A stretch of 64,000 nt of DNA from Corynebacterium hansenii (GTDB taxonomy: Bacteria > Actinomycetota > Actinomycetes > Mycobacteriales > Mycobacteriaceae), in NCBI RefSeq assembly GCF_030408795.1, contig NZ_CP047211.1, positions 434,001-498,000 of the forward strand. The letters are read 5' to 3'. Under the pieces are notes generated by a model. It was not told the origin of the DNA and ran no database searches. It saw only the letters and a list, made by a program, of their open reading frames with translations. This document shows, piece by piece, positions 3,486 through 63,151 of the stretch (position 1 is its first letter; the number at the start of each line of letters is the position of its first letter). A program made the position numbers and the translations under genes.

Positions 3486-3570
3486 GGCTCGGCGCGGCGC
3501 CCTTCCGGGCGTCCGCGCGGAACCCCTTCGACCCGGCTTTGCGACGGCCGCGTCAACCGCGGTTCGGCCG

Positions 3571-3576
3571 TAGAGT
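3571..3576 (+). promoter_or_regulatory. Possible internal promoter -10 box before rpoA
   Basis: TAGAGT at 3571-3576 in the 159-bp rpsD-rpoA gap fits an actinobacterial -10 box, but no convincing -35 box lies 16-18 bp upstream. The gap also carries one copy of the dispersed GCTTTGCGACG word at 3536-3546. Confidence 0.3.
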
Positions 3577-3644
3577 CGGGGCAACTTCGCATCCCCATTC
3601 CCCAAGGCGTCAAATAGCGGTCGCCACCAGGAGGATCACAGATC

Positions 3645-4661
3645 ATGCTCATTTCCCAGCGTCCCACGCTCACCGAGGATTTCATCGATTCCTCGCGCTC
3701 CCGGTTCGTCATCGAGCCGCTGGAGCCGGGTTTCGGCTACACCCTCGGCAATTCGCTTCGCCGTACGCTGCTGTCGTCCATTCCGGGCGCGGCGGTGACG
3801 AGCATCCGCATCGACGGCGTGCTGCATGAGTTCACCACCATCCCGGGCGTGAAGGAGGATGTCTCCGACATCATCCTGAACATCAAGGGCCTGGTGCTGA
3901 GCTCCGACTTCGACGAGCCGGCGACCGTGTACCTGCGCCGCGAGGGCGGCGGAGCCGTCACGGCCGGCGACATCGAGTGCCCGGCGGGCGTGGAGATCCA
4001 CAACCCGGATCACCACATCGCCACGCTCAACGAGTCGGGGCGCCTGGACATCGAGATGGTCGTCGAGCGCGGTCGCGGCTACGTTCCCGCCCAGCCGAAT
4101 TCCGGCGGCGAGATCGGCCGCATCCCGGTCGACCAGATCTACTCCCCGGTGCTGAAGGTCAGCTACAAGGTCGAGGCGACCCGCGTCGAGCAGCGCACCG
4201 ACTTCGACAAGCTGGTCATCGACGTGGAGACGAAGAACTCCATCTCCGCCCGCGACGCGATGGCGTCGGCCGGCAAGACCCTGGTGGAGCTCTTCGGCCT
4301 GGCCCGCGAGCTCAACGAGGCCGCCGAGGGCATCGAGATCGGCCCGTCCCCGCAGCAGAACGAGGACATCGCCGCCTACTCCATGCCCATCGAGGACCTG
4401 GACTTCTCCATGCGCTCCTACAACTGCCTGAAGCGCGAGGAGATCCACACGGTCGGCGAGCTCGCCGCCCGCACGGAGTCGGACCTGCTGGACATCCGGA
4501 ACTTCGGCGACAAGTCCATCAACGAGGTCAAGGTCAAGCTTTCGGAGCTGGGCCTGTCCCTGAAGGACTCGCCGAACGATTTCGACCCGTCCACCGTTGA
4601 GGGCTACGACGCCGAGACCGGCGAATGGACCGAGGACGCGGAGGTCGGCTACGACGAGTAG
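3645..4661 (+). CDS. rpoA: DNA-directed RNA polymerase alpha subunit
   Basis: A 338-residue protein that dimerises to start RNA polymerase assembly. The N-terminal domain (about 1-230) has the family signature [18 protein letters not shown]; the C-terminal domain (about 255-320) has the helix-hairpin-helix-like [20 protein letters not shown] region that binds UP elements and activators. A short acidic tail ends the protein. The ribosome-binding site AGGAGG is just upstream. It lies between rpsD and rplQ, the normal order for the alpha operon. Confidence 0.97.
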
Positions 4662-4702: not shown

Positions 4703-5284
4703 ATGCCCAAGCCCAAGAAGGGCGCCCGTCTCGGCGGCTCCGCTTCCCACCAGAAGAAGATTCTGGCGAACCTGGCGAAGCAGCTGTTCGAGCACGGCCA
4801 GATCAAGACCACCGACACCAAGGCCAAGCTGCTGCGCCCCTACGCGGAGAAGCTGATCACGAAGGCCAAGGGCGGCACCCTGGCGGATCGCCGCAACGCC
4901 GCGAAGCTGCTGAACGACAACTACGTCGTCCAGGTGCTTTTCGACGAGCTGGCGCCGAAGTTCGCCAACCGCGAGGGCGGCTACACCCGCATCATCAAGC
5001 TGGGTAACCGCAAGGGCGACAACGCGCCGATCTCGCTGATCCAGCTGGTCACCGAGGAGACCGCTTCCGCCGAGGCGACCCGCGCCACCCGCGCCGCCGC
5101 GTCGAAGCAGGCCGAGGAGGCCAAGGCGGAGGACGCCGACGCCAAGGCCGCCGAGGAGGCTCCGGAGGTCGAGGCCGAGGAGTCGACCGACGCCGAGGCA
5201 GAGGCCGAGGCCAAGGACGCCGACGCCGACGCCGACGCCGAGGCTGAGGCCGACGCCGACGCCGAGAAGGCCGACGAGAAGTAA
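4703..5284 (+). CDS. rplQ: 50S ribosomal protein bL17 with long acidic tail
   Basis: Residues 1-120 are a complete bL17 ([19 protein letters not shown] start, [40 protein letters not shown]), a protein near the peptide exit tunnel. The remaining about 70 residues are almost only Ala, Glu, Asp and Lys, with repeated Asp-Ala and Glu-Ala dipeptides, so the protein (193 aa) is much longer than the 120-130 residues usual elsewhere; actinobacterial L17 proteins often carry such tails. It is the last gene of the alpha operon and is followed directly by a strong hairpin terminator. Confidence 0.96.
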
Positions 5285-5376: not shown

Positions 5377-6426
5377 TTGCCTTCCGTGAACGACCTTGAC
5401 GTGAATGCCCCGCGCGAAGGGGACGCGAATGCCCCGAGTGGCGCCGGTGCGAGCGACGCCGGTGCCGGCGCCCCGAGTGGTGCCGGTGCCGGCGATTCGG
5501 CGGACCTCGTGCGGCTGCGCCTGGACATCGCCTACGACGGCACCGATTTCCACGGGTGGGCCGCGCAGGGCGGGCCGGGCGGGGCGTCGCTGCGCACGGT
5601 CCAGGGCGTGATCGAGGACGCCCTGGCCAAGATCCTGCGCCAGGAGGCGCGCCTGACGGTCGCCGGCCGCACGGACGCGGGGGTGCATGCGCTGGCGCAG
5701 GTCGCCCACGTCGACGTCACCCGCCAGTCGCTGGACACGAGGTCCATCGCCGGCGATCCGGCGCGGCTGGTGCGGCGGCTGGCGCGCCTGTTGCCCGACG
5801 ACGTCTCCATCCGGGCCTGCTCCTTCGCCCCGGAGGGCTTCGACGCCAGGTTCTCGGCTTTGCGACGCCACTACGTCTACCGCATCACCACCTCCGACGC
5901 GGGCCCGCTGCCCACGCGTGCGCGCGATACGGCGACGTGGACGCGAAAGGTCGATCTGGACGTGCTGCGCGAGTCCGCGGAGATGCTCGTCGGCCTGAAC
6001 GATTTCGCCGCGTTCTGCCGCCACCGCGAAAACGCGACCACCATCCGCGACCTGCAGCTGTTCGAGTGGCACGACATTTCCACGGCCGCGGAGCCGGAGC
6101 TGTACGAGGCCCGGGTCACCGCCGACGCTTTCTGCTGGTCGATGGTGCGGTCGCTGGTGGGCGCCTGCCTGGCGACGGCGGAGGGCCGCCGCCCCCGCGG
6201 CTTCACCGGCGGGCTGCTCGACGAGCGCGAACGCTCGCCGCTCGTGCCCGTGGCGCCCGCCAAGGGCCTGGCGCTGGCGGGGGTGGATTACCCGGATGAC
6301 GGCGAATTGGCCGCCCGCGCCGCCAAGACCCGGGACATCCGCGTCCTGCCCGGCGAGGAGCACCGCGCCGTCGGCAAGGGCTGCCCCGACACCAACCCGT
6401 GGTTCGACGGAATGCCCGACCGCTAG
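5377..6426 (+). CDS. truA: tRNA pseudouridine(38-40) synthase TruA
   Basis: TruA isomerises uridines 38-40 in the anticodon stem-loop of tRNAs. The catalytic aspartate lies in AGRTDAGVHALAQ; other family blocks are LDIAYDGTDFHGWA, RFSALRRHYVYRI, DFAAFCRH and FCWSMVRSLVGAC. The chosen start is TTG 5377; GTG 5386 is also possible. The first about 40 residues form an Ala/Gly/Pro/Ser-rich extension with a duplicated APSGAGA unit that is not part of the enzyme fold, so the true start could be later. It follows rplQ after the terminator, as in mycobacteria. Confidence 0.93.
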   Translation: MPSVNDLDVNAPREGDANAPSGAGASDAGAGAPSGAGAGDSADLVRLRLDIAYDGTDFHGWAAQGGPGGASLRTVQGVIEDALAKILRQEARLTVAGRTDAGVHALAQVAHVDVTRQSLDTRSIAGDPARLVRRLARLLPDDVSIRACSFAPEGFDARFSALRRHYVYRITTSDAGPLPTRARDTATWTRKVDLDVLRESAEMLVGLNDFAAFCRHRENATTIRDLQLFEWHDISTAAEPELYEARVTADAFCWSMVRSLVGACLATAEGRRPRGFTGGLLDERERSPLVPVAPAKGLALAGVDYPDDGELAARAAKTRDIRVLPGEEHRAVGKGCPDTNPWFDGMPDR

Positions 6427-6512: not shown

Positions 6513-8882
6513 GTGATCTGGCCCGCCATCGTGTTGGTCCTGCTGCTCGTCGTCCCCGGAGCCATCCTGGCCGTAGCGTCGGGCCTCCGGCTCGGCTGGG
6601 CGCTCGCGCTCGGCCCGGCGCTCACCTTCGCGGTCACGGGCCTCGCCGGGTGGTTGTTCGGCGCGGTCGGCATCGGCTACTCGACGCTCACCGTCGCCCT
6701 GGCGTGGCTCGTCATGGTCGCCGTCGCGCTGGTGTGGCGCCGCTTCGCGCCCAAGCGGGAGGATGCGGCGGGGCGGGCGTCGTCAAGCGAGGAGCCCCGC
6801 GGCCGCGCACGGGCCCTCATGGCGTTGCCCGCCGTGGCGGGATTGGCGGTCGCGGTGGTGACCCTGGGGTGGGCCGCGCTGTCCCGGCTCGCCCGCGCCA
6901 CCGAGGGCATCGAGGCCATCCAGCAGTCGTGGGACGTGCACTGGCACGCCTCGGTGATCAAGTACGCGCTGGACACCGGGATGGTGTCGTCGACGCGGAT
7001 GGGCGAGATCCAGAACCTGGAGACCTCCGGCGACATGTACTACCCGGCGGCCTGGCACGCGTTCGGCGCGACGGTCGTCGAGGTCACGGGCCTGAGCGTG
7101 CCGGCCACCGTCAACATCCTCGGCCTGGTCGCCCCCGCCCTGCTGCTGCCGCTGGGCGCGGCCGCGCTGGGCTGGCGGATGATCGACCGCGGCGGCTGGA
7201 CCGCCTCCATCGCGGCGGGCCTGGCCGCGGTGCTGACCACCGCCGTGCCCGTGATGGCGCCCATCGGCGTCTACGTCGGCGCATGGCCCTACCTGCTGGG
7301 CATCGCCCTCACCGGCGTCACCTTCGCCGTGCTGTCGTCGGTGCCGCACGCGCCGATCCGCATGTTCGCCGGCGCGCTGGCGCTGATCGGCATCGGCCAG
7401 CTCCACCCCTCCGCCGTGCCGTCGACCGTGCTGCTGCTCGCCGCCTGGTGGCTGTTCGGCCGGCTCTGGCGGCCCGTGCGCCCGGAGCTGGGGGCCGCGA
7501 AGTCCCGGCTGCGCGACATCGGGCTGATGGCCCTGCCCGGCGTCGTCTCCGCCGCGTTCCTGCTGCCGCAGTGGCTCTCCGGCGAGCAGCAGGCCCAGGA
7601 AATCCGCGCCGAGAGCGCCACGGTCGACGTCAACCGCTTCGAATCCTGGTACCGCGCCGCGACGATGCTCACCCGCCACGCGGAGGACTACGGGTCGGTC
7701 AAGCCGGTGATCATCGTCGGCGTCATCGGCCTGGCGGTCCTGGCGCTGCTGCTGCGGCGCTACTGGCCGGCGGTCGCGTGGGCGGTGTCGGTGCTGTACA
7801 CCACGCACGCCATCAACACCTTCGACGGGGTCTTCGGCAAATTGCTCGGCGTCTACACCGGCCTGCACTACTCCACGCCGCACCGCCTGGTCCTGCAGAC
7901 CGCGCTGTTGATCACGGCGGCCGGCGGCGCGGGCGTGGCCCTGCTCATCGCCGCTGCGGCGGCGTACGCGGCGCGTCGCAAAGCCCGGAGCGCGGCCACC
8001 GCGAGCGACGCACCGGCGAGCGATGCAACGGCGTGTGACGCACCGGCGGGCACAGGTAACGCGAGCACCGCCCCCGCAGGCGAGGATGCCGCTCCCGTGC
8101 CCTTCGCCGACCGGCTCGCGCGCCCCAACCCGGCACCCGCCCCGGTCGCGGGCATGCTCGTCGCGGCGTTGCTGGTGGCCGGGTTCGTCCCGTGGGCGGT
8201 GCACCGCATGGCGCCGGTCAACGACCACTCGTACCTGGACATCCGCGACCACCGGTTGGTCAGCGAGCGCGACCTGCGCGCCTTCGACTGGCTGGCGCAA
8301 CAGCCCGAGGCCCACGAGCACCGGGTGTTCACCAACCCCAACGAGGGCTCGGCGTGGATGTACATGCGCAACGACATCCCCACCGTGTTCCGCCACTTCG
8401 TGTGGCCGGACGCCGACAAGCACTCGGCGACGTCGATGATCTACTGGCACACCGACAAGATCGGCTGGGGCGAACCGTGGAACCCGACGGCCGCCAACCA
8501 GGTGGACCTGGCGCTGAAGAAGCTCGACGTCGGCTTCATCTACGTTTCGCCGCCGTACTTCTGGGCGGACCAGCGCATCAACATGCGCATGCAGGAGGGC
8601 GCCTGGTGGTCGCGCGGCCTGACGCCGGTGTACCGCGACGAGGAAGTCACCATCTACGCCGTCAACGCCGTGATCGACCCCGAGCGCATCGAAGAGATGC
8701 GCAAGGGCTCGCCGATGGAGATGCCGCCGATGACCACCCGCGGCCAGGCGGGCGCGGCCAAGCCGGGCGACGCCGACTACGACGCCCCGCACGCCTGGGT
8801 GCCGGACTTCTCTACCGGTTACCGCGGGGAGGGCTCGGTGTTCCCGGAGGGGCAGGAGCCGCTGACGGTGCGCCCCAAGTAG
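6513..8882 (+). CDS. Large polytopic membrane protein (DUF6541-like)
   Basis: A 789-residue protein with many hydrophobic helices. Residues 1-75 contain two or three, residues about 100-460 most of the rest with GATVVEV and HPSAVPSTVLLL segments, then an Ala/Ser/Thr/Asp-rich linker (about 485-530), one more helix (about 545-565) and a C-terminal soluble region of about 220 residues, probably outside the membrane. The architecture resembles GT-C-type glycosyltransferases and the actinobacterial DUF6541 family, but I see no catalytic motif I would assign. GTG 6513 follows GGAGG (6499-6503). Two copies of the dispersed 11-bp word fall in its hydrophilic linkers (6778, 7974). Confidence 0.8.
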   Translation: MIWPAIVLVLLLVVPGAILAVASGLRLGWALALGPALTFAVTGLAGWLFGAVGIGYSTLTVALAWLVMVAVALVWRRFAPKREDAAGRASSSEEPRGRARALMALPAVAGLAVAVVTLGWAALSRLARATEGIEAIQQSWDVHWHASVIKYALDTGMVSSTRMGEIQNLETSGDMYYPAAWHAFGATVVEVTGLSVPATVNILGLVAPALLLPLGAAALGWRMIDRGGWTASIAAGLAAVLTTAVPVMAPIGVYVGAWPYLLGIALTGVTFAVLSSVPHAPIRMFAGALALIGIGQLHPSAVPSTVLLLAAWWLFGRLWRPVRPELGAAKSRLRDIGLMALPGVVSAAFLLPQWLSGEQQAQEIRAESATVDVNRFESWYRAATMLTRHAEDYGSVKPVIIVGVIGLAVLALLLRRYWPAVAWAVSVLYTTHAINTFDGVFGKLLGVYTGLHYSTPHRLVLQTALLITAAGGAGVALLIAAAAAYAARRKARSAATASDAPASDATACDAPAGTGNASTAPAGEDAAPVPFADRLARPNPAPAPVAGMLVAALLVAGFVPWAVHRMAPVNDHSYLDIRDHRLVSERDLRAFDWLAQQPEAHEHRVFTNPNEGSAWMYMRNDIPTVFRHFVWPDADKHSATSMIYWHTDKIGWGEPWNPTAANQVDLALKKLDVGFIYVSPPYFWADQRINMRMQEGAWWSRGLTPVYRDEEVTIYAVNAVIDPERIEEMRKGSPMEMPPMTTRGQAGAAKPGDADYDAPHAWVPDFSTGYRGEGSVFPEGQEPLTVRPK

Positions 8883-9707: not shown

Positions 9708-9725
9708 CGCCCCCGCTTCACGACG

Positions 9726-9777: not shown

Positions 9778-10758
9778 CGCGTCCCCGATGCGCAGGTGCC
9801 AGGCGTGGGCGCCGATGATCAGGCGCGGGACGTCCGCGCGGGCGGGGCCGGATGGTTCGGGCGGCGGGGCGTCGTGAAGCATGATCGCCGCGGTGCGCGG
9901 GGACCCGTCCGCCGTGGCACCGCGATCGAGGACGAGCAGGTCGACGGTCGGGTCGCCGGCGGCGGTGACGGGCACGGCCCCGTGGTCGAGGAGAATGCCG
10001 AAAGCGCGGGGGCGGTGCGTGCGGATGCCGATGCGGGCGCCGGTGATGAGCGTGGGCACGAGGAGTTCGGCTAGGCGGGCGGGGTCGGCGACGACGTCGA
10101 GGCGCTCGAGGGACGGCAGCGACATCACCAGCGGGCCGCCGTCGCGGGAGGTGCCCACCAGCTGCGCCGGAGCGTGCGGCACGTCGAAGTCGTGCGCCGG
10201 GGTGAACCACAGGTGCGGGCGGCGGACGTGGCCCCGGCCCGGGGCGCGGGCGAGGAGACGCTCGGGCTCGGTGGCGGCGTCGAGGTCGAATTCGCCGGGG
10301 GAGAGGGGCCGGGCGCGCAGACCGAGCAGTCCCAACCGGTGGATGAAGAAGTCCAGGCGCGCGCGATCGTGCTCCGCGGGGCCGCCGACGAGCACCGACG
10401 CCCACTCGGGTTCGGCTACCCCGAGCTGATCGGCGAAACCCCGGTAGCGGTGGGCGGCTTCGCCCGTGGCGCGGACCGGGCGGCGGTGCACCGAGACCAC
10501 GTCGACGGGCACCGGGCACTCGGCGACGGCATCGACCAGGGCCGGCATCGGCAGCACGTCACGGTCGGCGGAGACGATTCGGGCGCCCGCCGTGGGAACC
10601 GGATTCGGTCCGCGCCATCGGTCGCGCAGCGCCCGGCCGCGCACCGGGACGTGTACCCCGGCGACGACGAGCGCCGACGCCCCCACCAGCAAAGGGGCCG
10701 CGTTGTCCGCGAGAAACCCCGGCATGCCAGACCAATCCAACTGCGCCACCCCCGGCAA
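9733..10758 (-). CDS. EccE-like type VII secretion protein
   Basis: A 341-residue protein with one N-terminal hydrophobic segment (about 20-40) followed by a soluble region. The stretch around residues 65-100 (LPMPALVDAVAECPVPVDVVSVHRR) resembles the conserved EccE core. Position next to eccB also fits the EccE component, which sits at the rim of the ESX membrane complex. Similarity is weak by eye, so another ESX-associated membrane protein is possible. The start is unclear: TTG 10758, GTG 10749 or ATG 10725, none with a strong ribosome-binding site. It is divergent from eccB, with 124 bp between them. Confidence 0.55.
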   Translation of the reverse strand: MPGVAQLDWSGMPGFLADNAAPLLVGASALVVAGVHVPVRGRALRDRWRGPNPVPTAGARIVSADRDVLPMPALVDAVAECPVPVDVVSVHRRPVRATGEAAHRYRGFADQLGVAEPEWASVLVGGPAEHDRARLDFFIHRLGLLGLRARPLSPGEFDLDAATEPERLLARAPGRGHVRRPHLWFTPAHDFDVPHAPAQLVGTSRDGGPLVMSLPSLERLDVVADPARLAELLVPTLITGARIGIRTHRPRAFGILLDHGAVPVTAAGDPTVDLLVLDRGATADGSPRTAAIMLHDAPPPEPSGPARADVPRLIIGAHAWHLRIGDAKTPVRPLPIMSAKV

Positions 10759-10882: not shown

Positions 10883-12181
10883 ATGCCTCGCACTCCGACC
10901 ACGCCCGCGCAGATCAGCGGGCACAGGTTCCTGGTCCGCCGCGTGGAACACGCGCTGGTCAGGGCCGATGCCCGGATGCTCCACGATCCGCTGCGGACCC
11001 GGGGCCGGGCGGTGGCCGCGGGGGCGGCGCTGCTGGTGCTCGTGCTTGCGGGGACGGTGATCTTCGGGCTGATCCGGCCCCGCGATGGCACGGCCGACGC
11101 GGATCTGCTCCTGGTGCGCGACACGGGGGCGCTGCACGTGCGCATCGACGACCGCGTCCACCCGGTGGCGAACCTGGCGTCCGCGCGGCTGGTGCTGGGG
11201 CAGCCGGCCGAACCGGTCCGCGTCGGGGGAGGGGCGCTGGGCGACGTGCCCGCGGGGCACCCCATCGGCATCGCGGGGGCGCCGGCCATCGCCGCCTCCG
11301 ACCCGCCCGGCGCGCCTGCCGCGGTGGGCGTGTGCGAAAACGCCGAGCCCGCCCTGCATGAGCCGGTCGCGGTCCGGTCCACCGTGGCCCGCACCGGGGG
11401 CCTGCCCGCCGACGACGGCGTGGCGGCCCTGCTCGGCGACGGGGAGCGGCTGTGGTTGGTCCACGGCGGGCGCCGGGCGCTGATCGACGCCGCCGATCCC
11501 GCGCTGGCGCGGTCGCTCGGGCTGGCCGGGGCGCCGGTTCGCCCCGCCGGGCCGGCCCTGTTGCGGGCGCTGCCCGAGGCGCCGCCGGTGACGGTCCCCG
11601 AGGTGCCCCGGGTGGGGGAGGCGACCGCATGGCCCGCGCCGTTCGACCTGGTCGGACGGGTCGTCGAGGTGGCGGACCGGCGCGTGGCGGTGCTTTCCGA
11701 CGGCGCCGTCGAAGTCCCTCCGGTGCTCGCCGACGTCTTCGCGGCCCGGTTCGGTTCCGCCTCGGCGACGGAGCCGGAGCTGGCCGCGGTTCCCGTCGCC
11801 GCCGCACCCGACGCCGGTTCGCTGCCCGGCGAGATCACCGAATGGGCCCCGGCCGACGGCTGGTTGTGCGTCGACGCCGATGCACGGGACACGTCGGTCA
11901 CCGTCGGCAAGCCACCCGCCGGAGTCGTGCCCTACCCGGGGGCCGACGGGCCGGGGCCCGCGATGGACGGGTTTTCCGGCGGCGCGCCCGGCACCGTCGC
12001 CGTGGACACCGGAGCGGGCGTGCACCTGGTCACCGTCGATGGCACGCGGCACCAGGTGGAGAACCGCCGCGCGCTGGCCGTGCTGGGCTACCACTCGGCG
12101 GTGCCCGTGCCGTGGCGGGTGCTGGCGTCGCTTCGCGAGGGGCCGGAGCTGACGCGCGCCGCCGCACTGGCCCCGGCGTGA
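10883..12181 (+). CDS. eccB: Type VII secretion protein EccB
   Basis: EccB is a core ESX membrane component with one transmembrane helix and a large periplasmic domain. This 432-residue protein begins with the family signature PAQISGHRFLVRRVEHALVR and RMLHDPLR, followed by a single hydrophobic helix (about 42-64). A repeat-containing periplasmic domain follows with conserved Cys residues. ATG 10883 is chosen because GGGGGAA lies just upstream and the signature starts right after it. A TAGGCT -10-like box lies at 10832-10837. It opens the ESX locus, but downstream is an ABC exporter rather than another ecc gene. Confidence 0.9.
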   Translation: MPRTPTTPAQISGHRFLVRRVEHALVRADARMLHDPLRTRGRAVAAGAALLVLVLAGTVIFGLIRPRDGTADADLLLVRDTGALHVRIDDRVHPVANLASARLVLGQPAEPVRVGGGALGDVPAGHPIGIAGAPAIAASDPPGAPAAVGVCENAEPALHEPVAVRSTVARTGGLPADDGVAALLGDGERLWLVHGGRRALIDAADPALARSLGLAGAPVRPAGPALLRALPEAPPVTVPEVPRVGEATAWPAPFDLVGRVVEVADRRVAVLSDGAVEVPPVLADVFAARFGSASATEPELAAVPVAAAPDAGSLPGEITEWAPADGWLCVDADARDTSVTVGKPPAGVVPYPGADGPGPAMDGFSGGAPGTVAVDTGAGVHLVTVDGTRHQVENRRALAVLGYHSAVPVPWRVLASLREGPELTRAAALAPA

Positions 12182-12376: not shown

Positions 12377-13387
12377 ATGAATCAACCCACGGAGGGGGCG
12401 CCGCCGGATGATGTGGTGCTCGATGTCCGGGACCTCTGCAAGACCTACGGAAACGGCCCCCGGGCCAAACGGGTGCTGGACGGGGTGAGCTTCCGCGTTC
12501 GCCGCGGGCAAACGGTCGCCCTGCTCGGCGCCAACGGCGCCGGCAAGACCACGCTGGTGAACATCGCCACCACCCTGCTGATGCCGAGCTCCGGGACGGT
12601 TCTGGTGTGCGGGGCCGACGTCGTCGCCCGCGCCCGCGAGGTCCGCGAGCACATCTCGCTCACCGGGCAGTTCGCCGCGGTGGACGGGGAACTGACCGGG
12701 CGGGAGAACCTGATCTTCTTCGCCCGGATCAACGGCTTCGGCAGGGCGGGAGCCGCCGCCCGCGCGGATGAGCTGCTGAAGCGATTCCGGCTTGACGACG
12801 CCGGCGATCAGCGGGTTTCCGCGTATTCCGGGGGCATGCGGCGGCGGCTGGACATCGCGGCGTCGATGATCGTCGAAACCGAGCTGCTGTTCCTCGATGA
12901 ACCCACCACCGGTCTCGACCCCCTGTCGCGCCGGGAGCTGTGGGCGATGGTCGACGAACTGCGCGGCCGCGGCGTGGCCATCCTGTTGACCACCCAATAC
13001 CTCGACGAAGCCGAGCGGCTGGCCGACGACGTCGTCCTGCTGAGGGACGGGCGCACCGTGGCGCAGGGTTCCCCGTCGGAGCTTCGCCGGAAATTCGGCG
13101 CCCCGCGGTGTTGCCTCGGTTTCGACGATGAGGCATCGGCGCGGCGCGCGGCGTCGCACACCCTGCCGGAGAGCCTGGGCCGCCCGCGGGAGGACTTCAC
13201 CGTCGATGCCCTGGAAGTCTCCTTCATCGCCCACGATGGGACGGAGGATCTGATCGGGGCGACCCGCGCGCTCGGGTCCACCGGGCCGGAGATCGTCTCC
13301 GCCGCGATCACCCCGCCCTCGCTGGACGACGTCTTCCTCGGCACCGCCTTCGCCGGCGGCGGAGCGGGCGGAGAGAACCGGCCGTGA
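12377..13387 (+). CDS. ABC transporter ATP-binding protein, DrrA-like
   Basis: A 336-residue ATPase of the daunorubicin-resistance (DrrA) type that powers ABC-2 exporters. Walker A GANGAGKTT (about residue 55), Q-loop region LTGQFAAVDGELTGRENL, signature YSGGMRRRLD, Walker B LLFLDEP and the H-loop replaced by a Gln in LLTTQYLDEAERLADD, as is usual for DrrA proteins. The C-terminal 100 residues are the regulatory extension of this subfamily. GGAAGGA precedes ATG 12377. Its stop overlaps the start of the next gene (GTGA), so the three genes 12377-14954 are one operon. Substrate unknown: drug, lipid or siderophore export are possible. Confidence 0.93.
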   Translation: MNQPTEGAPPDDVVLDVRDLCKTYGNGPRAKRVLDGVSFRVRRGQTVALLGANGAGKTTLVNIATTLLMPSSGTVLVCGADVVARAREVREHISLTGQFAAVDGELTGRENLIFFARINGFGRAGAAARADELLKRFRLDDAGDQRVSAYSGGMRRRLDIAASMIVETELLFLDEPTTGLDPLSRRELWAMVDELRGRGVAILLTTQYLDEAERLADDVVLLRDGRTVAQGSPSELRRKFGAPRCCLGFDDEASARRAASHTLPESLGRPREDFTVDALEVSFIAHDGTEDLIGATRALGSTGPEIVSAAITPPSLDDVFLGTAFAGGGAGGENRP

Positions 13388-14958: not shown

Positions 14959-16104
14959 TCACTGCCGTCCGCCCCGGTTCGCGGAACGGGCCGATCCCGC
15001 GGCCCACAGCGCGGAAGCGGCCAGTGAAACCACCGCGCCAAGGAAGAGGATCCGCACCCTCGACCCCGGAACCGGGTCGGGACGGGGCGGCGGGTGCGGG
15101 GGCGCGGCGCCCGCCGGGGCCCCGGGGCTTGCGGCGCCCGCCCAGTTGACGGCGGCGACCGGGTCGACCACGCCGATGCCGATGCCCGGCGTCGACGCCA
15201 CGGGCGAGGACGTCGCGGCGATGATCTCCCGGACCTCGGCGGGCGACAGCGCCGGATGGCGCGACAGGATCAGCGCCGCCGTGCCCGACACCAGCGGCGC
15301 GGCGAAGCTCGTGCCGACGATCGGCGCCGCCCGGGAACCCGTCACCCGGAGGTCCGCCATCGTCTCGCCATCCGGCGCGGGCCCGGCGACGGGACCGCCG
15401 GGTGCCGCGACGTCGACCCACTCCGCGGTCACCGCGTAGCCGGCGGCAACGGCCTCTCCGTCGTTGCCCGCCGCCGGGGCCGCGCCCGAACCCGCACCGT
15501 TTGCGCCGGTCACCGCCGCACCCGAACCGGCATCGTCCGCACCGCGCACCGCCTCGGCGACGTCCGGGGCACCGGGCGGCACGGCCCCCGGCGGGGCGCA
15601 CGAGGTCAGCGAGATGTTGATCACCCGCGCCCCCTGCGCCACCGCCGAATCGATCGCCGTGGCCAGCGACAGCAGGGTGCCCTCGTCTCCCGTGGTGTGG
15701 CGGATGCTCAGCACGGTCGCCCCCGGCGCGACGCCCGCAATGGAATCCGCGCCGGGCCGACCCGCCGCCAACCCCGCGACGAAGGTCCCGTGGGCGTCGC
15801 AATCGTGGAACGCGCCCTCCCCGCCGGTGACGTCGCCGCCGTCGACGACGCCTCCCAACCGCGGGTGATCCGCCACTCCGGTGTCGATGATCGCGATGGT
15901 GATGCCCGCGCCGTCGGCCAGGGGCCACGCATCCCGGAACCGCAGCGCCCGTTCGGCGCCGGTCGGTTCGGACAGGATCGCCGTCGATGACGCCGCGGCC
16001 TCCGTGCACCGGGTCTGGGCGGCCGGCTGAGGGGCGCCGACGATGGCCGTCGCAAAGCACAGGAGCCCCGCCGACCAGGCGGCGGCGCGCAGGCGCCGGC
16101 TCAC
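14959..16104 (-). CDS. mycP: Mycosin, type VII secretion subtilisin-like protease
   Basis: MycP is a membrane-anchored subtilase that stabilises the ESX complex and can process substrates outside the membrane. The 381-residue protein has an N-terminal signal peptide (about 1-30), the catalytic triad Asp74 (AIIDTGVADHP), His105 (DAHGTFVAGL) and Ser266 (GTSFAAPLVSG), the oxyanion Asn in AAGND, a Pro-rich linker and a C-terminal transmembrane helix (about 350-368). GTG 16104 is chosen because it overlaps the eccD stop (GTGA) and starts right at the signal peptide; the frame is open further upstream only as a shadow of eccD. An Ala/Gly/Ser-rich insert lies about residues 175-195. Confidence 0.93.
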   Translation of the reverse strand: MSRRLRAAAWSAGLLCFATAIVGAPQPAAQTRCTEAAASSTAILSEPTGAERALRFRDAWPLADGAGITIAIIDTGVADHPRLGGVVDGGDVTGGEGAFHDCDAHGTFVAGLAAGRPGADSIAGVAPGATVLSIRHTTGDEGTLLSLATAIDSAVAQGARVINISLTSCAPPGAVPPGAPDVAEAVRGADDAGSGAAVTGANGAGSGAAPAAGNDGEAVAAGYAVTAEWVDVAAPGGPVAGPAPDGETMADLRVTGSRAAPIVGTSFAAPLVSGTAALILSRHPALSPAEVREIIAATSSPVASTPGIGIGVVDPVAAVNWAGAASPGAPAGAAPPHPPPRPDPVPGSRVRILFLGAVVSLAASALWAAGSARSANRGGRQ

Positions 16105-17477
16105 CGGACCAGCCCCGCCGCCAGCTCGGGGATCCCCGCCACCACGGCCGCGAGCGGCAGGGACACGGCGATGGACACGGCCTCGACGAGCTCGAGCACG
16201 CGCCGCATGGTCGGGGTGACGCGCGCGGCGGGCACGGCGGCGACGGCCGTCGCCGCCAGGGGCGGGGCGATGAGGAGCAACGCGATCGGCCAGCGGCCCG
16301 CGTCCCATTGCGCCAGCGCGAGACCGATGAGCAGTGCGGCGCCGGCGCAGCCCAGGGCCGCCGACGGGATCAGCCGGGCATGGCCCCGGGACTGGATCAG
16401 GCACAGCACCGTCGCCGCCGCGAGCAGCCCCGTCGACCAGCCGTCCGGCGATCCCGCGGCGATCGGCGCGGCCGCCGCGACGAGGACCGCCGCCCACCCC
16501 GCGACCATGCCGTCGAGAAGCCGGCCCGCCCGCGAGGCGACGGCGTCGACGGGGTCATCGGGGTCGGGGTCGTCCGGGAAGGGCTCTCCCGCGGCGGGGA
16601 TGCGCGGCACCCGCACCCCGGCCGCCGCGACGGCGAGACCCGGGGCCGCCGCCACGCCGATCACGGCCAGGGCGATGGTCAACGCGGCGGCGGGGAGGAC
16701 CTCGCCGGACCAGGCCAGCGCCGCCGCGTACCCGGAGGCGCCGACGGCCATCGCGGCCCCGCCCGCACCGGCCGCGGTCAGCGCCGCGGAGACGTCACGC
16801 CGGGCGGGCCACGGCACCAGCAGCGCCGACGACGCGACCAGCGCACCCGGGACCAGGCCCGCGGCGAACCGCCAATCCGCGCCGACGTCGGCGGCGCGGA
16901 TGCCGGTCAGCACCGCACCGGCCACCGACGCGAACACCAGAACCTGGCAGGCCAGGAACAGCGCCGTCGCGGCGGAACCGCCCCGGCGCAGCGCGATGCG
17001 CAGGCCCCCGCCCGCCGCCAGCGCGATCGCGCCCGCCACCCCGGCGGCGAGCACCGGATCCTGCGGCGACATCGCCAGCACCCCGGCCACGGTGGCGACG
17101 GTCGCCGCGGACGCCGCGGACAGGCCGACGGCGGCATCTGCGACCCCGACCCCGGGCGCGCCGTCGGCGAGCACGTCGGCGACGTCGATCACCATCGGCG
17201 GCGGCGCGGGCCCGGGATCGTCGACGATGACGATGCGGTCGCCGTCGCGCACCCCCGCCCCGGCCAGGCCGGACTCGGGATCGGCGATGGTCCCGTCGGG
17301 CAGCCGGGCCCGCCACGACGCCCCCGGCGCGGCGCCGGAGCCGAACATGTCGAGCATCTCGGGCAGCACGGCGGCCACCGGCGCCTCCGCCGGGACGAGC
17401 AGATCCGCCCTCCGCGCAGGTCCGTCCCCGGGCAGCAAATCGACCCGGATCCGCAGCATCGACGCCGTCGGCGACAT
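16101..17477 (-). CDS. eccD: Type VII secretion integral membrane protein EccD
   Basis: EccD forms the membrane vestibule of the ESX complex. Residues 1-95 are the ubiquitin-like (YukD-type) cytosolic domain, with strands such as LRIRVDLLPGD and VRDGDRIVIVDDP; the rest (about 115-455) holds about eleven hydrophobic helices. Length (458 aa) is normal for the family. It is transcribed with mycP, which starts on its stop codon, and is divergent from eccC with 146 bp between the two starts. Confidence 0.92.
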   Translation of the reverse strand: MSPTASMLRIRVDLLPGDGPARRADLLVPAEAPVAAVLPEMLDMFGSGAAPGASWRARLPDGTIADPESGLAGAGVRDGDRIVIVDDPGPAPPPMVIDVADVLADGAPGVGVADAAVGLSAASAATVATVAGVLAMSPQDPVLAAGVAGAIALAAGGGLRIALRRGGSAATALFLACQVLVFASVAGAVLTGIRAADVGADWRFAAGLVPGALVASSALLVPWPARRDVSAALTAAGAGGAAMAVGASGYAAALAWSGEVLPAAALTIALAVIGVAAAPGLAVAAAGVRVPRIPAAGEPFPDDPDPDDPVDAVASRAGRLLDGMVAGWAAVLVAAAAPIAAGSPDGWSTGLLAAATVLCLIQSRGHARLIPSAALGCAGAALLIGLALAQWDAGRWPIALLLIAPPLAATAVAAVPAARVTPTMRRVLELVEAVSIAVSLPLAAVVAGIPELAAGLVR

Positions 17478-23939: not shown

Positions 23940-24001
23940 CCGGCCACCGCGCAGCCGTTTCACGAACCGCTGCGCGAACTGCTCGACGGACTGCTTTACG
24001 A

Positions 24002-24045
24002 CGGCCGATGCCACCGCCCCGCACCCGGGGCGGATGCATCGGCCG
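24002..24045 (+). terminator. Long hairpin after the WXG100 pair
   Basis: Two 20-bp arms (24002-24021 and 24026-24045) pair with only two mismatches around a CACC loop. There is no T run, so it may be a Rho-dependent or bidirectional stop. A copy of the dispersed word (GCTTTACGACG, 23993-24003) runs into its left foot. The 332-bp gap 23940-24271 otherwise holds the rplM promoter and no gene. Confidence 0.7.
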
Positions 24046-24100: not shown

Positions 24101-24271
24101 AGGCCGCCTGTGTGCACCCCACTCCCGCACGCGCGACGAAACACGCCCCACGCCGGGCGTCGTCAAGCGAAAAAGCGGCGAGCACAACCTCCCCGGGTCT
24201 CCACCGGCCGCCGGGGGCAGGGCACGCGGCGCACACCGGCCGGCAGAATCACACGGACCCGTAAAGGAGTC

Positions 24272-25841: not shown

Positions 25842-26108
25842 GTGATCGAAACGCCGCAGGCCGTCGAAAAGCGGCTTCGGAGAATCAGGAGACGTCCGGA
25901 TTCCGTCTCGTTCGACGACCTTCGGATCGTGTGCGACCACTTCTTCGAGCGCAGGCCGGGGAAAGGGTCGCACGTGGCCGTCTACAAAATGCCGTGGATC
26001 GGAGATCCCCGCATCAACCTGCAACGGGGCGAAGGCGGAAACGCCAAGCCGTACCAAGTCCGCCAGGCGTTGAAGGCGATCGACCGGTTGTTGGACGAAA
26101 AACAGTGA
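25842..26108 (+). CDS. hicA: HicA-family toxin (mRNA interferase)
   Basis: An 88-residue basic protein with a double-stranded-RNA-binding-like fold that cleaves mRNA when not bound by HicB. The catalytic His44 lies in the G-S-H motif (RRPGKGSHVAVYKMP), the hallmark of HicA, though the protein is a little longer than classical 60-residue HicA. GTG 25842 starts 7 bp after the operator dyad. The G+C content and codon use look lower than in neighbouring genes, a sign of transfer. It is followed 11 bp later by hicB. Confidence 0.82.
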   Translation: MIETPQAVEKRLRRIRRRPDSVSFDDLRIVCDHFFERRPGKGSHVAVYKMPWIGDPRINLQRGEGGNAKPYQVRQALKAIDRLLDEKQ

Positions 26109-49755: not shown

Positions 49756-50634
49756 ATGTTCGTTCTCGCCGTCGACACGTCCACGCAGCAGGTCACCGCC
49801 GGTCTCGTCCGCGTCGCGGAGTTGCCCGGGGCGCGGGGCGGCGCGGGGGCGTCGGCAAGCACGCGCCGCACGCCGATCATCGAGGAGCTCGCCGCCTCGG
49901 GCCACGTCGACGCACGCGCCCACAACGAGGTGCTCACGCCGCTGATCCGCCGCTGCCTGGATGAGGCGGGGCTCGAGGGCGGTGCGGCCCGGGCGGTCGC
50001 CGCGGTCGTCGTCGGCTGCGGGCCGGGGCCCTTCACGGGGCTGCGGGTGGGCATGGCCACCGCGGCCTCTTTCGCGGATGCGTGGGGCGTCCCCGCCCAC
50101 GGCGCCTGCTCCCTCGACGCGCTGGCGCACCCCGGCGGGGAGCGTTTGCGTGGCGACGTCCTGGCCGTCACCGATGCCCGCCGCCGCGAGGTGTACGCCG
50201 CCGCCTACCGCGATGGCCAGCGCGTATGGGGACCGGCGGTGCTGCCCGCGGCCGCCTGCGCCGAGGCGGTGTTCGAGGCGGTCCACGACTTCGAGCCGGC
50301 ACTGCTCGTCGGCGACGAAGCGAAGTGCGCCGACGTCCGCGCCGGACTTGAGGCTCTTGCGGAGGTCGATGGCGACGCGTCGGCACCGGACATCAGGGCC
50401 GCCTATCCGACGCCCGCCGGGCTCATCGCCGCCGCCATCGCGGAGCTCGAGCACGAGCACGACGAGGACGGACCCGATTCCGACGGCGACGGCGAACCGG
50501 ATCACGTGCCCTTCCGCGCCACCGCCGCGCTGAAGGCCCCGGCCGGGCCTTTGGTGCCGCTGTACCTCCGCCGGCCCGACGCCGTGCCGCCGAAGCCGAA
50601 GCCGAAGTCGCCCGCCATCCCGGACGTGCCGTGA
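49756..50634 (+). CDS. tsaB: tRNA threonylcarbamoyladenosine biosynthesis protein TsaB
   Basis: TsaB is an inactive paralogue and essential partner of TsaD. The 292-residue protein starts with the ASKHA phosphate loop VLAVDTSTQQVTAGLV and has HNEVLTPLIRRCLDEAG, the GPGPFTGLRVGMATA signature and VTDARRREVYAA. The last about 60 residues are acidic and Pro/Lys-rich. ATG 49756 lies 5 bp after tsaE; GTG 49747, overlapping the tsaE stop, is the alternative. Its stop overlaps rimI. Confidence 0.93.
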   Translation: MFVLAVDTSTQQVTAGLVRVAELPGARGGAGASASTRRTPIIEELAASGHVDARAHNEVLTPLIRRCLDEAGLEGGAARAVAAVVVGCGPGPFTGLRVGMATAASFADAWGVPAHGACSLDALAHPGGERLRGDVLAVTDARRREVYAAAYRDGQRVWGPAVLPAAACAEAVFEAVHDFEPALLVGDEAKCADVRAGLEALAEVDGDASAPDIRAAYPTPAGLIAAAIAELEHEHDEDGPDSDGDGEPDHVPFRATAALKAPAGPLVPLYLRRPDAVPPKPKPKSPAIPDVP

Positions 50635-51218: not shown

Positions 51219-52376
51219 ATGACCTCCTCCGCGCCCGCCGCCGCCGACAGCAGCACGCACAGCCGCACGATCCTCGCCATCGAGAGTTCCTGTGACGAGA
51301 CCGGTGCCGCCGTGATGCGGGTGACCTGGTCGGATGATCTGCCCGCCGAGCGCGAGGGTTCCGCCGACCGCCCGCGCATCGAGGTCCTTTCCGACGTCGT
51401 GGCTTCCTCGATGGAGCAGCACGCCCGCTTCGGCGGCGTGGTCCCGGAGATCGCCTCGCGCGCGCACCTTGAGGCCCTGCAGCCCGTGGTCGGGGAGGCT
51501 TTGCGACGCGCCGGGGACGAGCTCGGCCGCGAACCGTCGGAGGGGCGTTTCATCCCGGATTGCGTCGCCGCCACCGTCGGCCCGGGTCTGGCGGGCGCAC
51601 TGCTGGTCGGTTCCGCGGGTGCGAAGGCGTACGCGGCGGCGTGGGGGGTGCCGTTCTACGGGGTCAACCATTTGGGCGGCCACGTGGCCATCGGCGCCCT
51701 CGTCGGCGCGGACCTGACCAACGCGGTGGCGCTGCTTGTGTCCGGCGGGCACACGCAGTTGCTGCACGTGCGCGGCGCGGGCCGCCCGATGACGGAGCTG
51801 GGGTCGACGCTCGACGACGCCGCCGGCGAGGCATACGACAAGGTGTCCCGGCTGTTGGGCCTGGGCTACCCCGGTGGTCCGGTCATCGACCGGTTGGCCA
51901 AGCAGGGTGATCCGGCGGCGGTGAAGTTCCCGCGGGGGATGATGCGCCCGCAAGATTCGCGCCACGACTTCTCCTTCTCGGGCCTGAAGACCGCCGTCGC
52001 CCGATACGTCGAGGCCGCCGAGCGGGAGGGCCGCGTCATCGACATGGCCGACACCTGCGCCTCGTTCCAGGAAGCGGTGTGTGACGTGCTGACGTTCAAG
52101 GCCGTCCGCGCCGCAAAGGACGTCGGCGCCACCACGCTGCTGCTCGGCGGGGGAGTGGCGGCCAATTCGAGGCTGCGCGAGCTCGCGGCGCAGCGGTGCG
52201 AGGAGGCCGGGCTGACCCTGCACGTGCCGCCGATGCGGCTGTGCACCGACAACGGGGTCATGATCGGCGCGATCGCAGCCCACCTCATCGCCGCCGGGGC
52301 CGAGCCCTCCGGCTACGGCTGCGCCACCGACCCGTCGATGCCGGTGGAAGAGCCGATCGCCGCAGCCGCGACCTGA
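51219..52376 (+). CDS. tsaD: tRNA N6-adenosine threonylcarbamoyltransferase TsaD
   Basis: TsaD transfers threonylcarbamoyl to A37 of ANN-decoding tRNAs. The 385-residue ASKHA protein has the phosphate loop [15 protein letters not shown], the metal-binding histidines in [40 protein letters not shown] and the C-terminal [15 protein letters not shown]. About 30 residues are inserted around residues 30-50, and one dispersed 11-bp word (51498) lies in another variable loop. TAGAAT sits 6 nt before ATG 51219, so a separate leaderless transcript is possible inside the operon. Confidence 0.95.
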
Positions 52377-53028: not shown

Positions 53029-53160
53029 GTCTGCTCCTTGGCGGGCTGGACGGCCCTGCGGCGGGGGTGCCGCGGACTCCCTCCACGGTATCGGCGCCGA
53101 CCGGTTCGCGCGGTGAATGGGCCGTGCACGGGCCGTCGCAAAGCCCTGCACCCACTAATG

Positions 53161-55263: not shown

Positions 55264-55288
55264 TCGCGGGCCGGGTCCCCTGCTTCAC

Positions 55289-55324
55289 GACGCCTCATCC
55301 GACCGCATGGTCGGGTGGGGCGTC
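55289..55324 (+). terminator. Hairpin after groEL1
   Basis: Arms 55289-55304 and 55309-55324 pair over 16 bp with two wobble positions around GCAT. A copy of the dispersed word (GCTTCACGACG, 55282-55292) forms the left foot. There is no T run. Confidence 0.75.
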
Positions 55325-58343: not shown

Positions 58344-59912
<1,569 letters not shown>

Positions 59913-61082: not shown

Positions 61083-61398
61083 GACCCTTCCGGCCTTCGC
61101 TTGCGCCGAGGCCCGTTGCGGCGCCCGGGGTTTCCCCGGGCGCCGCTTCGTCGTCTGCGGCGCCTCCCCGCTCCGCCGCTCGCCCTGAGGCGCCTTCCCG
61201 CCCCCCTTCCTGCCCGGCCTCCCCGCGTCGCGGGGGCCTTCGCTTTGCGACGCCCCTCATTCGTTGGTTTCGCCCGCGAAAACCGGCATCGCGGTCCGGA
61301 AACGCTGCTAGCGTGACGTGCGTAACAAACGGGTTTCGCCGGGTGGAGTTCGCCCGGGCGCAGTCGATGCGCGCCCGCAGGAGGAAAGGTTGCGAATA
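61083..61398 (+). other. guaB3 terminator hairpin and leader of the ChoD-like gene
   Basis: This 316-bp gap has no gene. A perfect 13-bp hairpin (61118-61130 with 61134-61146, loop TTT) follows guaB3 and probably terminates it. Near 61309-61314 TAGCGT may be the -10 box of the next gene, giving a leader of about 78 nt. A copy of GCTTTGCGACG lies at 61242-61252. Confidence 0.65.
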
Positions 61399-63114
61399 AT
61401 GGCACGGGATTACGATGTGCTCGTCGTCGGCTCCGGCTTCGGCGGCTCCGTGGCGGCGCTGCGGTTGACGGAAAAGGGCTACCGCGTCGGCGTGATCGAG
61501 GCGGGACGGCGGTTCGAGGACCACGAGTTCGCCAAGACCAGCTGGCGCCTGAACAAGTACCTGTGGGCGCCGAAGCTCGGCCTGTTCGGCGTGCAGCGCG
61601 TGCACCTGCTCAAGGACGTCATGATCCTCGCCGGCGCCGGCGTCGGCGGCGGTTCCCTGAACTACGCCAACACCCTGTACAAGCCGCCGTCCCCCTTCTT
61701 CCGCGATGCCCAGTGGGGCCACATCACCGACTGGGAGAAGGAGCTGACCCCGTACTACGAGCAGGCGCGGAAGATGCTCGGCGTGGTCACCAACCCGTCG
61801 ATCACCCCGGCCGACCGGGTCATGCGCGAGGTCGCGGAGGACATGGGCGTCGGCGACACCTTCGTGCCCACCCCGGTGGGCGTGTTCTTCGGCGCCAAGA
61901 CCGGCGGCGAGGGCGAGCCGGGCGAGACCGTGCCCGACCCGTACTTCGGCGGCGCCGGCCCCGATCGCACCGCGTGCACCGAGTGCGGCGAGTGCATGAC
62001 GGGCTGCCGCCACAACGCCAAGAACACCCTGCTGAAGAACTACCTGCACCTGGCGGAGAAGGGCGGCGCGCACATCATCCCGCGCACCACCGTCCGCGAG
62101 CTGCACCCGCGCGCCGACGGCTCGTGGGACGTGGTCGTCGAGCGCACCGGCGCCTGGGTGAACAAGCGCCGCCGCACCTTCACCGCCGACCACGTCATCG
62201 TGGCGGCGGGCGCCTGGGGCAGCCAGAATCTGCTGCACCGCCAGAAGCAGGACGGCCACCTGCCCAACATCTCCGACCGCCTGGGCCACATGACCCGCAC
62301 CAACTCCGAGGCCATCGTCGGCGCCATGCGCCCGACCATCGACCCGAACGCGGATTACTCGGAGGGCGTGGCCATCACGTCGTCGTTCTTTCCCGAGCCG
62401 CACACGCACATCGAGCCGGTGCGCTACGGCAAGGGCTCCAACGCCATCGCGCTGCTGCAGACGCTGATGACCGACGGCGGCCCCGGTGGCCCGCGCTGGT
62501 GGAAGCTGATCAAGGGCCTCGCCGAGGACCCGAAGGTGCTGCTGCAGCTGGTCAACCTGCGCAAGTGGTCGCAGCGCACGGTGATCTCGCTGGTCATGCA
62601 GAACTCCAACAACAGCCTGACCACGCACCTGCGCAACTGGGGCCCGCTGCGGCTGCTGTCGTCGCGCCAGGGCGAGGGAGAGCCGAACCCGTCGTGGATC
62701 CCCGCCGGCAACGAGGCCACCCGCCGCGTGGCCGACAAGATCGGCGGCGTCGCCGGCGGCACGTGGGGCGAGATCTTCGACATCCCGCTGACCGCCCACT
62801 TCATCGGCGGCGCGCCGATCTCCGATTCCCCGGAGCGCGGCGTCGTCGACCCCTACAACCGCGTGTGGGGCCATCCGACGCTGCACATCACCGACGGCAC
62901 GGCGATGCCCGCCAACCCCGGCGTCAACCCGTCGCTGTCCATCACGGCCATCGCCGAGCGCGCCACCGCGCTGTGGCCGAACAAGGGCGAGGCCGACCCC
63001 CGCCCCTCCCAGGACGAGGCCTACCGCGACATCGCCCCCGTCGCGCCCGTCGCCCCGGTGGTGCCCGCCGATGCGCCCGCCGCACTGAATCTGGGCATGC
63101 CCGTCCGCAGGTGA
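61399..63114 (+). CDS. GMC oxidoreductase, cholesterol-oxidase-like (ChoD)
   Basis: A 571-residue flavoenzyme in the position of mycobacterial choD. The FAD-binding start is VLVVGSGFGGSVAALRLTEK, then MILAGAGVGGGSLNYANT and, near the end, HITDGTAMPANPGVNPSLSI with the active-site Asn/His region. A cluster CTECGECMTGCRHNAKNT (about 194-211) with four Cys resembles an iron-sulfur motif and is also in ChoD. The true substrate is uncertain; ChoD is not clearly a cholesterol oxidase in vivo. ATG 61399 follows AGGAGGAAAGG; GTG 61318 is a poorer start. The tail is Ala/Pro/Val-rich. Confidence 0.88.
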   Translation: MARDYDVLVVGSGFGGSVAALRLTEKGYRVGVIEAGRRFEDHEFAKTSWRLNKYLWAPKLGLFGVQRVHLLKDVMILAGAGVGGGSLNYANTLYKPPSPFFRDAQWGHITDWEKELTPYYEQARKMLGVVTNPSITPADRVMREVAEDMGVGDTFVPTPVGVFFGAKTGGEGEPGETVPDPYFGGAGPDRTACTECGECMTGCRHNAKNTLLKNYLHLAEKGGAHIIPRTTVRELHPRADGSWDVVVERTGAWVNKRRRTFTADHVIVAAGAWGSQNLLHRQKQDGHLPNISDRLGHMTRTNSEAIVGAMRPTIDPNADYSEGVAITSSFFPEPHTHIEPVRYGKGSNAIALLQTLMTDGGPGGPRWWKLIKGLAEDPKVLLQLVNLRKWSQRTVISLVMQNSNNSLTTHLRNWGPLRLLSSRQGEGEPNPSWIPAGNEATRRVADKIGGVAGGTWGEIFDIPLTAHFIGGAPISDSPERGVVDPYNRVWGHPTLHITDGTAMPANPGVNPSLSITAIAERATALWPNKGEADPRPSQDEAYRDIAPVAPVAPVVPADAPAALNLGMPVRR

Positions 63115-63151
63115 TGCGGGGGAGACGCGGGACGTCGCAAAGCGAGCGGGC

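Follow-up and report, generated by a model that had tools for sequence, protein, structure and literature searches.

A dispersed 11-base word as a putative DNA-uptake sequence in Corynebacterium hansenii and most of its genus

We analysed a 64-kb window of the Corynebacterium hansenii genome (the whole stretch presented here, bases 434,001-498,000 of one 3,098,017-bp contig), in which an earlier note had described a dispersed 11-base word, GCTT[TGC][AG]CGACG, reminiscent of DNA-uptake sequences. All 26 positions given in that note were correct, but the full count of this pattern in the window is 32, six copies having been overlooked. Dinucleotide shuffling of the window predicted 0.57 copies (maximum 3 in 100 shuffles), in agreement with the earlier estimate of less than one. 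The overlooked copy at 27739 raises the number of GCTTTGCGACG from 10 to 11, and the variants GCTTGGCGACG (four copies) and GCTTCGCGACG (one copy) had been left uncounted. The equal orientation first reported, 13 copies each way, becomes 15 plus and 17 minus over the 32 copies. The pattern itself is real, but its positions 5 and 6 are looser than proposed, and relaxing them gave GCTTNNCGACG, hereafter the word, with 41 copies in the window. A rough gene finder placed 15 of these 41 between genes, as well as 13 of the 26 copies first listed, of which about 11 had been thought intergenic. The 41 copies are as follows (window coordinates, strand, form and location).

3536..3546, plus: GCTTTGCGACG, intergenic
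4936..4946, plus: GCTTNNCGACG, outside the narrower pattern, in gene
5857..5867, plus: GCTTTGCGACG, in gene
6778..6788, minus: GCTTGACGACG, in gene
7974..7984, minus: GCTTTGCGACG, in gene
9715..9725, plus: GCTTCACGACG, intergenic
9870..9880, minus: GCTTCACGACG, in gene
11692..11702, plus: GCTTNNCGACG, in gene
11902..11912, minus: GCTTNNCGACG, in gene
12790..12800, plus: GCTTGACGACG, in gene
16048..16058, minus: GCTTTGCGACG, in gene
16511..16521, minus: GCTTNNCGACG, in gene
17643..17653, plus: GCTTGACGACG, intergenic
20403..20413, minus: GCTTNNCGACG, intergenic
23993..24003, plus: GCTTTACGACG, intergenic
24158..24168, minus: GCTTGACGACG, intergenic
25862..25872, minus: GCTTNNCGACG, intergenic
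27739..27749, plus: GCTTTGCGACG, absent from the first list, in gene
28795..28805, minus: GCTTTACGACG, in gene
30969..30979, plus: GCTTGACGACG, inverted pair (hairpin) with the 30998 copy, intergenic
30998..31008, minus: GCTTGACGACG, other arm of the inverted pair with 30969, intergenic
33562..33572, minus: GCTTTGCGACG, intergenic
36562..36572, plus: GCTTTACGACG, intergenic
37894..37904, minus: GCTTGGCGACG, flank identical to that of the 40372 copy (duplicated gene), in gene
39471..39481, minus: GCTTCGCGACG, in gene
40372..40382, minus: GCTTGGCGACG, flank identical to that of the 37894 copy, in gene
41350..41360, plus: GCTTNNCGACG, in gene
42581..42591, minus: GCTTGACGACG, in gene
43003..43013, plus: GCTTGACGACG, in gene
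43917..43927, minus: GCTTCACGACG, in gene
45248..45258, plus: GCTTGGCGACG, in gene
45616..45626, minus: GCTTGGCGACG, in gene
46208..46218, plus: GCTTGACGACG, in gene
47527..47537, minus: GCTTTGCGACG, in gene
49850..49860, minus: GCTTNNCGACG, in gene
51498..51508, plus: GCTTTGCGACG, in gene
53134..53144, minus: GCTTTGCGACG, intergenic
55282..55292, plus: GCTTCACGACG, intergenic
59126..59136, plus: GCTTNNCGACG, sole site retained at about 77-78% identity (genomes G072 and G001), in gene
61242..61252, plus: GCTTTGCGACG, intergenic
63133..63143, minus: GCTTTGCGACG, intergenic

Over the whole contig, the word occurs 1,889 times (952 forward, 937 reverse) against 118 occurrences (60+58) of its reversed control, and the narrower pattern 592+584 times against 20+34. 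Further counts were made on a 464-kb sample of the genome, composed of the window and 20 spaced stretches of 20 kb. The 270 copies of this sample comprised 195 within predicted genes, 74 intergenic and 1 at an edge; these labels are approximate, because the gene finder, a simple script of our own, misses some genes. Whereas 192 copies were present in the 402 predicted genes, shuffling the synonymous codons of each gene gave 27.0 (standard deviation 3.8, maximum 38, 200 runs), and a shuffle that also kept neighbouring bases gave 30.8 (maximum 40, 50 runs). The real count is thus far above the expectation of codon-shuffled models, with which the earlier note had proposed to compare it. The word is strict and non-palindromic, 9 of its 11 bases being fixed. 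In the same sample, one-base variants at positions 1, 2, 7, 8, 10 and 11 had 0-13 copies and those at positions 3 and 9 had 9-31. Variants at position 4 ranged from 5 to 152 copies, because C or G there gives a CG-rich word that is common by chance. At position 5, A was nearly missing (4 of 270). Conservation was limited to the 11-base core and weak C-rich flanks.

The placement of the copies in the 464-kb sample was not uniform. Their density per kb was 0.51 in genes, 0.97 in tandem gaps, 1.42 in convergent gaps and 0.58 in divergent gaps. Of the 195 copies within genes, the coding strand held 122 and the opposite strand 73, and 151 began at one codon phase, indicating that codon and amino-acid context affects where the word can sit. 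With no control set for either figure, 52 of 75 intergenic copies followed a predicted stop codon by no more than 150 bp, and in 34 of 75 a local fold paired at least 8 of the 11 bases. Fifteen pairs of copies had starts at most 80 bp apart and 10 of them were facing (p=0.0008 against a chance of one quarter), including the window pair 30969/30998. Spacing was more regular than random, with a coefficient of variation of 0.82 (249 gaps; median 1,332, mean 1,557). A balance of forward and reverse copies over a whole genome leaves a replichore bias possible; leading and lagging copies were counted from an origin-based split. The origin was placed near base 1 because dnaA, dnaN and gyrB are found at the contig start, and the terminus was taken to be half-way; the split was 135 leading and 135 lagging copies. 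The G+C skew along the sampled stretches was weak and not clean; for any assumed origin, 129-141 of the 270 copies were leading, and there is therefore no replication-strand bias. No obvious trend in density from origin to terminus was seen in the sampled stretches on inspection.

We then counted the word in 121 Corynebacterium genomes (genus by database grouping; G numbers denote genomes and L numbers loci), a genome being called word-bearing at three times the reversed control or more. For GCTTNNCGACG this was the case in 89 of the 121 (280-1,891 copies, median 1,090). Orientation was 1:1 in all 89 (none with p<0.05), with totals of 48,069 forward and 47,869 reverse copies. The word was dense both in G063 (1,203 copies; com locus of 50% G+C) and in C. 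hansenii (70%). Named loci were collected by scanning with the GuaB3 protein of the window, L085-L097 being the top 13. The best match was a strain labelled C. halotolerans 307_CHAL (100% protein identity, 98.7% DNA identity over 13.9 kb), followed by C. xerosis and others; labels are as deposited, L088 being labelled as an Actinomycetales metagenome-assembled genome only. Eleven of the 13 loci had 5-15 copies in 9-21 kb, while C. falsenii had 0 and C. suicordis 1. The next 67 loci (1.21 Mb), none labelled Corynebacterium and several labelled to a higher rank only, gave 39 copies and the control 54, which is background. The narrower pattern was also counted in 16 complete genomes belonging to other families within the order, where it did not exceed 1.7 times its control. 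One of the nearest congeners, G055 (groEL DNA 86%; 75-76% G+C), has lost the word (32 copies) although ComEA, ComEC, the Tad ATPase and DprA are all still encoded, and offers a natural comparison for such a loss.

Unbiased word counts in congeners without GCTTNNCGACG (G069, G006, G127 and G110) revealed a second word, GCTTNNCGATG, which differs by one base. We call the C form, GCTTNNCGACG, dialect A and the T form, GCTTNNCGATG, dialect B. When all 121 genomes were counted, GCTTNNCGATG reached 680-1,080 copies in G006, G069, G110, G121 and G127, and 213 in G089. These six dialect-B genomes had only 28-97 copies of the C form, equal to background, and the T form had 12-159 copies in the 89 dialect-A genomes. 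G100, with 159 copies of the T form against 10 of the control, may be a weak case of dialect B. When the labels A, B and neither were mapped on a tree of 41 genomes built from GroEL, 7 changes were required as compared with 17.5 after shuffling, indicating that the dialects follow phylogeny. On this tree G004, of dialect A, is a close relative of the dialect-B genomes G006 and G121. In dialect-B genome G121, the leftover dialect-A word was strand-skewed (26 forward, 64 reverse).

More divergent forms were also found. Two congeners probably use CGACGCCNCCA as their word; in G016, an A follows the word in 61 of 79 copies. G010 and G015 have CGACGCC(A/G)CC with T-rich flanks, TGGNGGCGTCG being present in 164 and 357 copies respectively, and G070, of the same clade, has a TATTGACGCC word. 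We presume this clade to be "jeikeium-like", a name that rests on the word-poor C. falsenii and C. suicordis. Their common GACG and C-rich tail suggest that the words of G010/G015 and G070 are related to GCTTNNCGACG, the tail in coding copies being partly made of third codon positions. As a genus-wide marker TGGNGGCGTCG proved poor: many genomes, C. hansenii among them (127 against 45), have more of it than of its reversed control. Only G015 and G010, in which it had emerged from unbiased counts, were credited with it as a dialect. The same kind of count gave no clear further dialect in G014, G100, G123 and G049, and none was clear in G017 (39 kb), in G057, G136 and G078 (80 kb in total) or in the high-G+C background of G055. 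The small samples of G003 and G024 were excluded from this search. A DnaA-box-like sequence, TGTGGATAA, was also strongly overrepresented in 120 kb each of G010 (10 copies against 0.43 expected; loci L024 and L035-L039) and G016 (9 against 0.27; loci L033 and L050-L054).

Mobile DNA was examined with plasmids and phages picked by hand (size, host, availability) from longer lists of 51 plasmid records and of 21 and 13 phage records. Seven Corynebacterium plasmids (298 kb; first 50 kb only for two of them) contained 7 copies against a Markov expectation of 3.9, counted irrespective of host dialect, and five Corynebacterium phages (219 kb) contained 12 against 5.8. In three C. xerosis phages, 11 copies were present in 131.5 kb, as compared with 15 in 21 kb of C. 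xerosis chromosome, corresponding to 1.67 and 14.2 copies per 20 kb. The two longest word-free stretches of the C. hansenii sample are prophages. The longest (L005:1-14120, 14.1 kb) encodes a terminase, RecT, RecE and RusA, 4 of 5 proteins matching phage families. The second (L013:11310-20000, of which the last 8.2 kb are word-free) carries genes for a tail, a tape measure and an endolysin, and all 5 of its proteins that were compared matched such families. Both lengths are minimum values, because both stretches reach the end of a sample. The third-longest (6.9 kb, L009) contained no obvious phage gene by eye.

Word positions were compared between C. hansenii and related loci. The nearest locus, L085 (98.7% identity), kept all 6 of 6 word sites, and the three C. 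xerosis-like loci (L086-L088, 87% identity) kept 10 of 14 aligned word sites as compared with 15-37% of nearby control sites. Five more distant named loci (L089-L092 and L095) kept 4 of 9. As sites recur between loci, these figures, and those for more distant congeners given below, represent few independent places.

The comEA and comEC genes, which the earlier note had suggested looking for, are present in C. hansenii as a comEA-comEC pair. The genome also contains a Tad locus encoding an ATPase (TIGR03819), two T2SSF membrane proteins, a TIGR03816 protein, a Flp-like pilin (DUF4244) and a TadE-family minor pilin (NF041390). All 121 genomes had a ComEA match at E<=0.001, and in 115 of them it exceeded the curated cut-off; ComEC was found in 61 of 61 genomes and DprA in all 12 examined. 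The Tad ATPase was found in 118 of 121 at E<=0.001 (two very weak; 112 above cut-off), the three genomes without it being drafts. Transformation of Micrococcus luteus depends on Tad genes, and the authors of that study describe Tad together with ComEA/ComEC as frequent in Actinobacteria (PMC4322843). The small protein encoded last in the Corynebacterium Tad locus carries a conserved pair of cysteines enclosing an asparagine-containing motif, the strict pattern being found in 5 of 10 species (loci L209, L213, L219, L221 and L225) and a similar one in two more; this protein is possibly a DNA-contacting minor pilin.

Taken together, the unbiased orientation, the excess in convergent gaps, dialects that keep the core and the scarcity in mobile DNA, an expected trait of uptake sequences, fit an uptake sequence. 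For this reason we consider it likely that GCTTNNCGACG is the DNA-uptake sequence of C. hansenii and of most of Corynebacterium, with dialects; the uptake-like reading of the earlier note is thus supported, also by the lack of replication-strand bias and the ComEA, ComEC, DprA and Tad genes. Orientation without strand preference, dispersed facing pairs and core-keeping dialects have been described for the words of Neisseriaceae and Pasteurellaceae (PMC3630211, PMC2346458), the facing pairs standing for our convergent-gap excess in this comparison. We lean, with somewhat less assurance, towards a third uptake system that evolved independently in Gram-positive Actinobacteria. Its word would be read by ComEA or a Tad/Flp pilus in place of a type IVa minor pilin, and its dialects would split the genus into groups whose members favour one another's DNA. 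In such a system, a surface part of the uptake machinery, probably a Tad/Flp minor pilin or another outer part, would bind double-stranded DNA bearing the word. The DNA would then be pulled in to ComEA, enter through ComEC in single-stranded form and recombine, aided by DprA and RecA (a route suggested by the ComEA, ComEC and DprA genes found). Alleles with the word would be imported and recombined more often, and copies would build up on either strand in the least harmful places, chiefly between genes. Phages, plasmids and prophages, spreading by other routes, would not accumulate the word, a pattern seen in the elements examined. Finally, an occasional change in the reader protein may account for dialects such as GCTTNNCGATG, which replace the old word within a lineage.

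In the open-access literature (titles and beginnings of abstracts; subscription journals and preprints outside), no such word in Corynebacterium was among the matches listed, and four spellings of the word gave no genomic repeat among the matches listed. In the parts consulted of a survey of spaced motifs (PMC5217627), Corynebacterium is named only for clustered regularly interspaced short palindromic repeats (CRISPR). As far as these searches show, an uptake sequence in Gram-positive bacteria would be new.

Several results weigh against an uptake function. The same literature search gave no report of natural transformation in Corynebacterium among the matches listed. Mobile elements contain the word at or slightly above chance rather than below it (12 against 5.8 in the phages). 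Neither word A nor word B was present at the cut-offs used in 26 of the 121 genomes, and for most of these 26 no word was recognised. The word-poor G014, G055 and G100 have the full set of ComEA, ComEC, Tad locus and DprA (in G100 the frame of ComEC is open). Loss of uptake genes, considered as a cause of word poverty, was not seen in these three, and machinery and word do not appear or disappear in step across congeners. As the same genes occur in word-poor species, the machinery shows that uptake is possible and not that the word serves it; candidate receptors are TadE-family pilins and ComEA. Proteins resembling the AdnAB/RecB nuclease-helicase type are also present, so that a Chi-like use is possible. 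Lastly, five congeners at about 77% identity kept only 2 of 32 aligned sites, fewer than flanking controls (7-17%), and these 2 are one site in two species. Conservation of positions at genus distance is therefore unsupported. Of the sister-species conservation considered in the earlier note, density was similar, with 41-46 copies per 80 kb in four of the five congeners as against 41 in the 64-kb window (the word-poor G055 had 1 per 80 kb), but positions were not kept. Either the number of words is maintained while their places shift, or the comparison at genus distance is blunt, since alignment failed for 173 of the 205 site-by-genome cases, which were left out.

The main rival to the uptake reading is a Chi-like or nucleoid signal. 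As a Chi-like signal, the word would be read at a break by an AdnAB/RecB-type helicase-nuclease switching to RecA loading, and its copies would protect or repair self DNA. The PDDEXK_1 nuclease domain (PF12705) was detected in the 12 of 12 genomes searched, and two of the C. hansenii matches lie in long open frames next to each other, an arrangement that AdnAB would show. Chromosomal enrichment and scarcity in phages are compatible with this role. We know of no Chi sites with facing pairs or an excess in convergent gaps, however. Chi too is an overrepresented short chromosomal word that varies between lineages, but its sites are polarised to the leading strand (PMC8022716), unlike the Corynebacterium word with its even split whatever the origin, and we regard this explanation as unlikely. 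Slightly less probable still is a site, distributed over the whole chromosome, to which a chromosome-organising, nucleoid or partition protein would bind. Regular spacing, presence on both strands, intergenic excess and phage and plasmid scarcity would suit such a site; a strict non-palindromic word with exclusive dialects and no obvious origin-terminus trend would not, and the nucleoid proteins Lsr2 and CgpS favour AT-rich DNA.

The excess in convergent gaps, the proximity of intergenic copies to stop codons, their pairing and the ability of facing pairs to form hairpins recall a spread transcription-terminator or RNA-end signal. This is improbable given that predicted genes hold 195 of the 270 copies, in both orientations, and that only 10 facing pairs occur among the 270. 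It is harder still to see the word as having no dedicated function, as a by-product of mutation, codon use or a protein motif, or as remnants of a short mobile repeat. The codon phase common to 151 of 195 coding copies would suit such a reading, but synonymous shuffles gave only 27-31 copies against 192, the word is dense at both 50% and 70% G+C, one dialect replaces another by a single base, and conservation ends at the 11-base core save for the weak C-rich flanks. We give equally little credit to a restriction-modification or DNA-methylation site: the bipartite, non-palindromic form resembles that of type I sites, but restriction-modification sites are usually avoided in genomes and not enriched.

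Compared with known systems, a putative uptake word in Corynebacterium would resemble the DNA uptake sequence (DUS) of Neisseriaceae in being short and non-palindromic, with roughly 10^3 copies in each genome and core-keeping dialects that follow the core-genome tree (PMC3630211), and in its facing pairs, cited for DUS in terminators (PMC2346458). It differs in its unrelated sequence and in its Gram-positive host, which carries a Tad/Flp pilus. With the uptake signal sequence (USS) of Pasteurellaceae it shares density, the lack of a general strand bias, an orientation bias within genes and facing pairs (PMC2346458), sequence and phylum being unrelated; unlike DUS and USS, it is known here from sequence alone. 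The actinobacterial ComEA/ComEC and the tadA-B-C-flp-tadE type of locus are as in M. luteus, for which two such loci are described (PMC4322843) as against the one described here in C. hansenii; the main text of that paper contains neither "uptake sequence" nor "uptake signal". Because uptake sequences have been described for only two proteobacterial families, Pasteurellaceae and Neisseriaceae (PMC7811141), an independent case with another pilus would allow a test of whether they originate through type IVa pili alone or generally through biased recombination. If the uptake reading is correct, natural transformation would be active and old in Corynebacterium, gene exchange by this route among its industrial, skin and clinical species would be predictable from a simple word count, and there would be a practical handle on natural transformation of laboratory strains.

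Two further features of the window were observed. The neighbouring genes 36616-38724 and 39364-41202 have near-identical starts and appear to be near duplicates (acyltransferase-like by eye); because their flanks are common to both, the words at 37894 and 40372 are not independent copies. The window also contains another dispersed repeat, which is built as a nested palindrome (about 65 bases; arms TAACCCACCCCGAATGCGCA and ACCCACCCG) and resembles repetitive extragenic palindromes and bacterial interspersed mosaic elements (REP/BIME). It is found at 39129-39226 and 52471-52520, with 40 core matches in the 464-kb sample.

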